This document shows, piece after piece, positions 11,701 to 13,987 of a stretch of 41,276 nucleotides of DNA. Below the pieces are notes generated by a model that was not told where the DNA came from, did not search any database, and saw nothing but the letters and a program-made list of their open reading frames with translations. The stretch spans positions 1 to 41,276 of the forward strand of contig JAQXZD010000107.1 in NCBI GenBank assembly GCA_029227035.1. Reading direction: 5' to 3'. The position numbers and the translations under genes were made by a program. The DNA is from Lachnospiraceae bacterium (GTDB taxonomy: Bacteria > Bacillota > Clostridia > Lachnospirales > Lachnospiraceae). Within the stretch, counting starts at the first letter, position 1, and each line of letters opens with the position of its first letter.

Positions 11701-12492
11701 TTATCCTTCCGTGTATCTTGTCAAAAACTGTCTGGTTCTCTCTTCCCTCGGATGTTCAATCACCTGATGCGGATCACCCTGTTCCACAATCAATCCATCA
11801 TCCATAAAAATCACCTGATCGGCAACATCTCTTGCAAATGCCATCTCATGCGTCACGATAATCATGGTGGTCTTCTGCTCTGCCAGTCCCCGGATAACCC
11901 GAAGCACCTCTCCGGTCAGCTCCGGATCCAGTGCCGAAGTAGGCTCGTCAAAACATAGGATATCCGGTTTCAATGCCAACGCTCTTGCAATTGCCACACG
12001 CTGCTGCTGTCCGCCGGAAAGCTGATGCGGATAATGCTCCATCCGCTCAGACAGCCCCATCTGATCCAAAAGTTCCCTTCCATGCTGCTCAATCCCGGCG
12101 AGAATCTCCTTCTTATCCGTCTTGTAATTTGGCTGTTCCTGTGCCAACAGGCGCTCCGCCAGCGTAACATTCTCCAGCGCCGTATACTGCGGAAACAGAT
12201 TAAAGGACTGGAAGACCATTCCGAAATGCAGACGCTTCTTACGCAGTTCCTCATCCTTTTCCTTCTTTTTTCCTGCCTGCTGTGCATCAAACAAAAGCTC
12301 ATCCCTGACTGAGATGCTGCCCTTGTCTGCCCGCTCCAGGAAATTCAGGCACCGCAAAAGTGTTGTCTTTCCGGAACCGGAGGAACCGATGATCGCAAGT
12401 GCATGTCCCTCCTCCAGTGAAAAGCTGACATCCTTTAATACCTGCGTCCTGCCAAAATGTTTTTCAATATGCTTTACCTCTAATAATGCCAT
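11701..12492 (-). CDS. Polar amino acid ABC transporter, ATP-binding protein
   Basis: This 263-residue ABC ATPase of the GlnQ/HisP type couples ATP hydrolysis to uptake by the permease upstream. Walker A GSSGSGKT lies at 36-43, the Q-loop region at VFQSFNLFPQ, the signature LSGGQQQR near 160, Walker B ILCFDEPTSALDPE and the switch His in VTHEMAFA. An insertion rich in Lys/Glu (about 70-90, after DAQQAGKKKEKDEE) makes it slightly longer than the usual 240 residues. It is third in the order binding protein, permease, ATPase. GTAGGAG precedes the ATG. Confidence 0.93.
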   Translation of the reverse strand: MALLEVKHIEKHFGRTQVLKDVSFSLEEGHALAIIGSSGSGKTTLLRCLNFLERADKGSISVRDELLFDAQQAGKKKEKDEELRKKRLHFGMVFQSFNLFPQYTALENVTLAERLLAQEQPNYKTDKKEILAGIEQHGRELLDQMGLSERMEHYPHQLSGGQQQRVAIARALALKPDILCFDEPTSALDPELTGEVLRVIRGLAEQKTTMIIVTHEMAFARDVADQVIFMDDGLIVEQGDPHQVIEHPREERTRQFLTRYTEG

Positions 12493-12524: not shown

Positions 12525-13181
12525 TTATTTAAAGTAGTCCAGTCTGCGCTCTATATAATTAAATAACAATGTAAGAATTCCCACAAATGCCAGATAAAAG
12601 ACTCCCGTATAGAAAAGCGGCCAGATGATTCCGGCTGATTTCATAAAGGAAAATCCCGCAAACGTCAGCTCATATGCCGCAATGATACGCGCCAGTGAAG
12701 TATCCTTCACCAAAGTTATAATCTCATTTGACATCGGCGGCACAATACGCTTAATCATCTGGAGCAGGGTAATCTTAAAAAAGATCTGACTTTTTGTCAT
12801 GCCAAGCACCTGACCTGCCTCGCGCTGACCTGCCGGAACTCCCTCGATTCCTCCGCGGAAAATAACAGAAAAATAGCATGCGTAATTAATGGTAAACGCA
12901 ACTACGGTCGCAGAGATTCGCCCCGCCTCATTTCCGCTCCAGATATTGTGGGACAGCCAGAGTCCCGGTCCATAAAAGATAATGATAAGCTGAAGCATCA
13001 ATGGTGTGCCCCGAATGATCCAGACCAGAACCTGTATCAGATAGCGAAGCGGCTTAAACTTGCTCATCGAGCCAAATGCCAGAACCAGCCCGAGAGGAAG
13101 TGCAAATATAAGCGTCAGTATAAAGATTTCAAAAGTTGTTGCCACTCCATTTAAAAGTGACTGTGTTACTGTCCAAAACAT
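12525..13181 (-). CDS. Polar amino acid ABC transporter, permease
   Basis: This 218-residue permease of the HisM/GlnP family has about five hydrophobic segments and the EAA loop GQREAGQVLGMTKSQIFFKI (about 127-146), which contacts the ATPase. It probably works as a homodimer, because no second permease gene is present. The start ATG follows directly after the stop of the binding-protein gene, and its ribosome site (GGAG) lies inside that gene's end, so expression is coupled. Confidence 0.92.
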   Translation of the reverse strand: MFWTVTQSLLNGVATTFEIFILTLIFALPLGLVLAFGSMSKFKPLRYLIQVLVWIIRGTPLMLQLIIIFYGPGLWLSHNIWSGNEAGRISATVVAFTINYACYFSVIFRGGIEGVPAGQREAGQVLGMTKSQIFFKITLLQMIKRIVPPMSNEIITLVKDTSLARIIAAYELTFAGFSFMKSAGIIWPLFYTGVFYLAFVGILTLLFNYIERRLDYFK

Positions 13182-13961
13182 TTATTTATTCTCCACAACT
13201 ACCTGTGCATTGTTGCAGTACGCATTTGTACATTCCATTGCCGAGGTAACTTCATCTGTCAGTGTCATTCCGTTCCATACCACATCAATATTCTTGGAAT
13301 CCAATTCCATAATCTTGGAATCCCAGTCAATCTCCACGAACTGAACCTCCACACCAAGCTTCTCTGCTACAAGCCGGGCCATATCTGCGTCAAATCCTAC
13401 CCAGTCATCTCCCTCTTTGTAATCCATCGGCTCAAAATCCGTAACGCCAACAATCAGGGTTCCCTTGTCCTTAATATATTCCACATCACTGTCTTCCGTC
13501 GCCTTATACTCTGTATCCTTCTGCTCAATCAGAGCCTCCTGGACACCGTATTTCTCTGCCGTTGTTTTCATGGTTCCGTCCGCATAGCTCTCTGCAAAAA
13601 TCTGATTTATGTAAGATGCCAGATCTGAACCTTTACGGCAGCCGACACCGTACTTTTCCGTTGTCAGTTCTTCCGTATGGATCATATCCGGGTAACTGGT
13701 TCCTTCTCCAATCATGGCTCCTGCCATCAGAAGGTCGATAATTGCTGCATCAGAAGTGCCGGAGGCAACCTCCATCAAAGCATCCGCCTGTGAAGAAACC
13801 GCATTATATTGAAGTCCTTTCTCCTTTGCGGCTTCCTCTCCCGCAGAACCTGCTTCCACTGCATATACCTTATTCTCCGCTGTTGTCTCCTTGCCGCCTC
13901 CGCAGGCTGTCAGCCCAAACACCATACAGCATGCCAGCAGAACTGCTATTCTCTTTTTCAT
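13182..13961 (-). CDS. Amino acid ABC transporter binding lipoprotein, circularly permuted SBP_bac_3
   Basis: This is a 259-residue lipoprotein with lipobox LTAC (Cys20). Residues 31-145 correspond to the usual C-terminal half of family 3 binding proteins: KVYAVEAGSAGEE like the 'VAVksGTt' strand, SGTSDAAIIDL like 'GrvDAvv.D', then YGVGCRKGSDL and the closing TAEKYGV helix. Residues 166-259 are the usual N-terminal half: KGTLIVGVTDFEPMDY, WVGFDADMARLVAEKLG, IDWDSKIMEL and NGMTLTDE. The order is thus swapped. The Arg that normally follows TDE and holds the substrate carboxylate is Val239 here. The ATG at 13961 is chosen over a GTG at 13964 because AAGGAGG is 7-8 nt before it. Confidence 0.9.
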   Translation of the reverse strand: MKKRIAVLLACCMVFGLTACGGGKETTAENKVYAVEAGSAGEEAAKEKGLQYNAVSSQADALMEVASGTSDAAIIDLLMAGAMIGEGTSYPDMIHTEELTTEKYGVGCRKGSDLASYINQIFAESYADGTMKTTAEKYGVQEALIEQKDTEYKATEDSDVEYIKDKGTLIVGVTDFEPMDYKEGDDWVGFDADMARLVAEKLGVEVQFVEIDWDSKIMELDSKNIDVVWNGMTLTDEVTSAMECTNAYCNNAQVVVENK

Positions 13962-13987
13962 CACTTGTCCTCCTTGTATGTTTTTTA

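Follow-up and report, generated by a model that had tools for sequence, protein, structure and literature searches.

A circularly permuted family 3 binding protein in a Lachnospiraceae bacterium, and evidence for more than one permutation in its phylum

We analysed a stretch of DNA from a Lachnospiraceae bacterium (GCA_029227035.1, contig JAQXZD010000107.1; 41,276 nt, the whole of which is called the window and supplies all positions given here). It encodes a family 3 substrate-binding protein (SBP), hereafter the window protein, which was confirmed to carry the second half of the SBP_bac_3 domain ahead of the first. The first half is denoted N and the second half C, so that canonical proteins are NC and permuted ones CN. 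The protein very probably serves an ABC importer of the amino-acid family as its lipoprotein receptor, with the circular permutation cut where lobe 2 begins. Few receptors have been studied as well as family 3 binding proteins, and their chain order has been altered naturally more than once (e.g. in Roseburia and Oscillibacter), with the operon partners retained.

A family 3 domain with its halves in reverse order

The window protein is a 259-aa ORF on the minus strand, starting with an ATG at 13961 and closed by a stop codon at 13182-13184; an alternative in-frame GTG at 13964 would give 260 aa. Its parts and the adjoining genes are listed in Table 1.

Table 1. Parts of the permuted binding protein and genes of its operon in the window
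Feature	Position	Strand	Basis or remark
Signal peptide with lipobox LTAC (Cys20)	13902..13961	-	Sequence; lipid anchor now ahead of the C half
C half of SBP_bac_3, residues 31-145	13527..13871	-	6svf alignment, C-half profile match
Linker, residues 146-161	13479..13526	-	Alignment with canonical L131 and L150
N half of SBP_bac_3, residues 162-259, carries Val238	13185..13478	-	Pfam match, tail length
Permease, 218 aa, BPD_transp_1; HEQRo_perm_3TM	12525..13181	-	Profile match
ABC ATPase, 263 aa, PF00005 over residues 19-186	11701..12492	-	Profile match

In its native order, the protein scored 88.2 bits against Pfam SBP_bac_3 (PF00497; gathering score 26.4), which places it in the family, and the match covered only residues 170-257, corresponding to profile positions 2-91 of 132. 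The N-then-C order typical of SBP_bac_3 was not found within the chain, identifying the protein as a permuted variant. A phmmer comparison with PDB chain 6svf returned two pieces in reversed order, with query residues 160-258 aligned to chain residues 3-103 and 30-138 to 118-226. A swap of the two parts was the check proposed in the preliminary description; when the residues from about 149 onward were moved to the front, the swapped sequence produced one continuous SBP_bac_3 stretch (residues 22-222, profile positions 2-130 of 132, 97.7 bits). The swap also raised the local alignment scores against the canonical proteins L131 (from 410 to 774; 153/240 identical) and L150 (from 403 to 740; 150/244 identical), and 148 of 241 aligned positions were identical with canonical L154. 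The swapped protein aligned end to end with all three at 61-64% identity. Such full-length alignment was obtained solely after swapping, as is characteristic of a circularly permuted homolog.

A scan of cut positions against L131, L150, and L154 placed the best new N-termini at residues 147-158 (summed score 2307-2327, vs 1220 for the unrotated sequence), which brackets the cut at about residue 155 given in the preliminary description. That description had claimed a circular permutation with the motifs of both halves all retained, and the Pfam and canonical-homolog alignments of the swapped sequence agree with it. The counter-case that it had named, a duplicated half, does not apply: half-profiles matched each half of the window protein exactly once, indicating that the protein is not a duplication. 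The nearest canonical subfamily shares 76% identity with the N half and 67% with the C half, by which retention of the fold is strongly implied.

The ATG of the permease immediately follows the stop codon of the SBP, with no gap. Together, the HEQRo-type permease and the ABC ATPase that adjoin the SBP make the operon that of an amino-acid-type ABC importer, and the profile matches bear out the earlier remark that both partners are normal. The window genome (a draft, 85.6% complete) contained a single SBP_bac_3 match and a single HEQRo-type permease match, both in this operon; in the control for these genome-wide searches, SBP_bac_3 was matched in 12 and the HEQRo permease in 11 of 14 genomes.

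Based on homology, the window protein would fold as a normal two-lobed Venus-flytrap receptor, and the lipid-anchored receptor would close on a small amino-type ligand, dock, and pass the ligand to the permease. Since there is one permease gene, the permease is probably a homodimer, driven by the ATPase. From the known fold of the family, we take the C half to comprise lobe 2 followed by the C-terminal part of lobe 1. The new termini presumably lie in lobe 2 beside the hinge, leaving lobe 1 continuous in sequence. The chain termini and the lipid anchor would thereby have moved from lobe 1 to lobe 2.

Conservation of the swapped order and anatomy of the cut

A scan of named genomes yielded 376 candidate stretches, of which 350 were confirmed as relatives. 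Among the best 80 of these 350, C preceded N in all 80 named loci, the permease adjoined the permuted SBP in all 80, and the ATPase lay beyond it in 78; the available DNA of the two remaining loci (L054 and L079) stops early. The titles of these 80 loci are mostly of Lachnospiraceae and Oscillospiraceae, including Roseburia porci, Roseburia faecis, and Oscillibacter sp. PC13. Close relatives of the source bacterium live in animal guts. The window's group of permuted proteins, group 1, comprises 95 proteins including that of the window (83 of them distinct), which have at least 68% identity to the window protein over the aligned columns. The half order is the same throughout group 1, which is far beyond chance. 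In 91 of the 95 proteins the half-HMM matches lie 27-29 residues apart, and in all 95 the chain ends 2-5 residues past the N-half (hinge-strand) match and the permease ORF starts between -100 and +177 bp relative to the SBP stop. The protein had been treated as a single oddity in the preliminary description; it is instead a member of a conserved subfamily, one of several separate permuted lineages.

The window assembly is fragmented (121 contigs, 85.6% complete), which would suit an assembly chimera, a misread ORF, or a decaying gene. The same order in all 80 named loci examined, including isolates, argues against such an artefact, as do the open reading frames with their conserved order and a permuted protein of 72% identity in G016, a single-contig genome from the window's genus. 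Independent assemblies thus refute this reading, to which we attach next to no probability.

At locus L192, a canonical SBP from another operon lies immediately upstream of the permuted operon. Neighbours similar to it occur at L005, L009, L013, L023, L028, L033, L034, L080, and L081, among others.

Comparison with canonical L131 located the rearrangement. In L131, the order is lipobox, acidic spacer, SDLEYIKGKGKLIVG..., hinge strand, surface segment, LTFAVESGSAGE..., YGVQDALVEQ, and stop. The window protein begins with a lipobox, a short spacer, KVYAVEAGSAGE..., YGVQEALIEQ, and KDTEYKATED, and continues with SDVEYIKDKGTLIVG..., AQVVVENK, and stop. In the alignment with L131 and L150, the linker connects what was the C-terminus (..GVQEALIEQ) with what was the N-terminus of the mature protein (SDVEYIKDKG..), and so appears to combine the former C-terminus with the spacer that used to follow the lipobox. 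The window protein lacks part of the surface segment at the cut (13 gap positions relative to L131).

We propose that an ancestral NC gene underwent tandem duplication followed by fusion, and that loss of the outer halves would then have given the order lipobox, C half, linker, and N half. The make-up of the linker and the missing surface segment are what such a course would leave. Among the loci fetched, we saw no tandem NC-NC intermediate from the subfamily of the window protein. Elsewhere, L193:1410-4313 (-) encodes a canonical protein of 967 aa in which a triple SBP (NCNCNC) is fused to a permease; it is possibly the kind of intermediate that could yield CN fusions by loss of the outer halves. 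Tandem permuted proteins also exist besides this tandem canonical one. The two halves might alternatively have been joined from different paralogs, and the report on the permuted lipoprotein TpMglB-2 (PMC4990184) shows its authors weighing a different gene as the source of the permuted part. For the two halves of the window protein, however, the nearest canonical subfamily is the same one (L131, L150, L152, and L154; 63-76%), and the window permease falls in that subfamily as well, which makes a two-paralog origin highly improbable. In the canonical operons of the subfamily, the permeases are 59-67% and the ATPases 61-75% identical to those of the window. This similarity indicates that the SBP changed its order while the operon was retained.

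Other permuted forms and the number of origins

Half order was read with half-profiles in the ORFs of the fetched loci. A search of 392 genomes of the window's order (its own included) at E 1e-46 or better matched 49, several of which had supplied rows for the query alignment A1. The domain order was checked in all 49: 46 were CN, two were CNC (G154 and G674), and one, in G675, was a canonical triple NCNCNC fusion, which had been counted among the matches and was rejected. A permuted family 3 protein was thus verified in 48 of the 392 genomes, probably a lower bound because scoring was limited to six candidates per genome. In a sample of the phylum, 28 of 299 genomes matched at E 1e-35 or better, a count that includes plain canonical proteins; proteins of CN order were recognised in families f41, f67, f80, and f96, and a tandem CNCN protein in f45.

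The permuted proteins take several forms. Free CN proteins accompany a separate permease; others are CN fused to the permease, mostly of 499-531 aa; and CNCN (L200, L211) and CNCNCN (L201) proteins are both fused to the permease. The ATPases adjoining L200, L201, and L211 have 353-363 aa, compared with about 240-260 aa in most other operons. Groups 1, 2, and 3, when aligned together, are cut at nearly one place, just past hinge strand 1. A second cut site, near the end of lobe 2, gives the CNC order at eight loci (L122-L124, L126, L127, L130, L134, and L195). A third, read from the sequence of L148, follows the opening strand and helix of lobe 2; L151 and L153 were assigned to this type from half-profile coverage. 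Among the listed matches, none was noticed that crossed the C-N junction and ended inside the N half, so that no cut in lobe 1 was seen, with a query that was biased towards lobe-2 cuts. Three single-piece tblastn plasmid matches from other phyla (H14-H16) seemed permuted, and H13 (Pusillibacter faecalis) was a further candidate; the proteins proved canonical in each case (plasmid matches examined: 4 of 372 records with a window-protein match).

For the first SBP tree, 236 rows were reduced to 95 by thinning at an identity of 80% and removing those that contained over 60 gaps; three NCN rows whose ORFs are open at the locus end (L078, L155, and L210) were omitted. The CN label required 10 changes on this tree, at least six of them forced by starred branches, with the CNC protein L126 mislabelled as CN because its third piece fell under the threshold. 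A more careful SBP tree was built from 49 hand-picked rows of the 236, and a permease tree from 39 hand-picked rows of 88 thinned ones; the latter is a check immune to the rotation applied to the SBPs. In the 49-row tree, group 1 and its canonical relatives formed a clade (98/90) apart from group 2, the second large permuted group, with its own canonical relatives. The AU test rejected a single clade of all 23 CN rows (log-likelihood 291 lower, p 1.8e-64), and likewise a joint clade of groups 1 and 2 (log-likelihood 258 lower, p 1.6e-7). The permease tree also rejected the joint clade (p 1.3e-21) and united the group-1 permeases in one clade (100/98). The SBPs of group 1 alone did not form a clade in their tree (three changes), and constraining them to do so was not rejected (AU p 0.487). 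A clade of group 2 with two further permuted rows, L113 and L117, was not rejected either (p 0.0747), so these two were not counted as certain separate events. L204, which is the same gene as L122, stood apart from the other CNC proteins in both the SBP and the permease trees and may represent a separate permutation event. Other permuted proteins share at most 38% (N half) and 32% (C half) identity with the window protein.

That there was more than one permutation event is certain, and the trees point to at least two in family 3 of the phylum; by our own estimate, there were probably five or more. A single ancient permutation would require all the intervening canonical relatives to be reversions. 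In its favour, groups 1, 2, and 3 are cut at nearly one place, and parsimony is unable to separate gain from loss. Against it stand the rejected monophyly of the permuted rows, with which the permeases concur for groups 1 and 2, the repeated reverse permutations that it would demand, and the two further cut sites (CNC; L148 with L151 and L153). A single origin is therefore strongly disfavoured and, in our judgement, very unlikely. The fuller account of recurrence comprises at least five events in family 3 of the phylum at three cut sites, affecting tandem and permease-fused proteins too, passing through a tandem SBP intermediate, and shifting the chain ends (and any anchor) from lobe 1 to lobe 2. 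We regard this account, taken as a whole, as evenly balanced between right and wrong.

Anchoring, known systems, and the ligand site

In group 1, 88 of the 95 proteins have a lipobox pattern ahead of the C half. With redundant loci counted, 123 of 136 free CN proteins, 13 of 20 CN-permease fusions, and all eight CNC entries show it ahead of their first half. The pattern is crude, missing LCAC boxes (L052, L079, L170, and L171) and depending on ORF starts; some pattern-negative proteins have LCAC boxes or lack their start. Three group-1 proteins (L031, L050, and L060) and five group-2 proteins (L167, L168, L172, L174, and L177) have a signal peptide without a lipobox and no fused permease, and are apparently secreted unanchored.

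The permutation could be adaptive, kept for the shift of the tether from lobe 1 to lobe 2, rather than a neutral by-product of tandem SBPs. All cuts seen, at three sites, lie in lobe 2 and move the chain ends off lobe 1, and most permuted proteins have a lipobox pattern or a fused permease. Anchoring was also suggested as a possible reason by the authors of the TpMglB-2 study (PMC4990184). However, the eight proteins that seem to have neither lipobox nor fused permease argue against anchoring as the whole reason, canonical relatives are likewise lipoproteins, and the search profile was itself cut in lobe 2, so that lobe 1 cuts are harder to detect. We consider the adaptive explanation doubtful.

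The window protein resembles canonical SBP_bac_3 proteins (GlnH, HisJ, ArtJ) in family, in being a lipoprotein or secreted SBP, and in its operon of one permease and one ATPase, and differs from them in half order and in its new termini in lobe 2. The S1/S2 ligand-binding domain of ionotropic glutamate receptors has its chain interrupted at roughly the same point, where hinge strand 1 leads into lobe 2. The channel is inserted there and the N-then-C order is retained, unlike in the permuted SBPs. Profile searches display the window protein as a truncated domain, and such proteins are therefore easily overlooked. No permuted family 3 protein in print was found in the literature searched, outside which most subscription papers fell, and none with a solved structure was present among the best 60 of the 82 PDB chains that matched the permuted profile. 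Within the same 60 chains, tandem GlnPQ (6h30) alone had a C-then-N best stretch, and this spans the SBD1-SBD2 junction. GlnPQ has tandem SBDs fused to the permease (PMC8025302). Tandem family 3 domains and fusion to a permease are common to GlnPQ and the permuted forms. Each SBD of GlnPQ is canonical (NCNC), whereas a permuted protein has C first and N last (CN, CNCN, CNCNCN).

In the literature searched, one natural permuted ABC binding protein was recognised, TpMglB-2. Its report (PMC4990184) describes that protein (Tp0684, Treponema pallidum) as a naturally circularly permuted ABC glucose-binding lipoprotein of type I, which binds its ligand in vitro with a conformational change. Relatives are given from treponemes and Gram-positive bacteria, and the authors propose the class Type Ic. 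Natural permutation of a lipid-tethered ABC binding protein is common to both cases. TpMglB-2 has a type I (cluster B) sugar fold with the N-lobe permuted, while the proteins analysed here belong to type II family 3, with cuts in lobe 2 and more than one origin. The window protein matches family 3 models and no type I family, and so lies outside Type Ic. The close canonical and permuted relatives (61-64% identity) are natural pairs in which the effects of chain order and of the anchored lobe are directly testable.

In family 3, the Arg after the T-x-E motif binds the carboxylate of the ligand. The preliminary description had reported its replacement by Val after TDE, and Val occupies the position in 85 and Thr in 10 of the 95 group-1 proteins, none of which retains the carboxylate Arg. 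The Val itself was read correctly; its number is 238 counted from the ATG, and 239 just from the GTG. This replacement sets the protein apart from canonical SBP_bac_3 in general, and Val also occurs in canonical relatives: the nearest six share it, five at a greater distance have Leu at this position, and another four, more distant again, have Arg. Loss of the Arg thus predates the permutation, and a link between the two was ruled out by the canonical relatives that likewise lack the residue. Asp76, taken to be the residue that holds the ammonium group in this family, and Arg109 do not vary across all 95 group-1 proteins. Rfam gave no match in the window, and a search for a riboswitch or T-box in 14 other loci found none, only RNase P and a tRNA. 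Our guess, of low confidence, is that the ligand may be a compound with an amino group but no carboxylate held in the conventional way. Two cysteines, Cys108 and Cys244, occur in all 95 group-1 proteins and a third, Cys249, in 94, and all three are present in canonical L131; they are possibly a disulfide or ligand feature.
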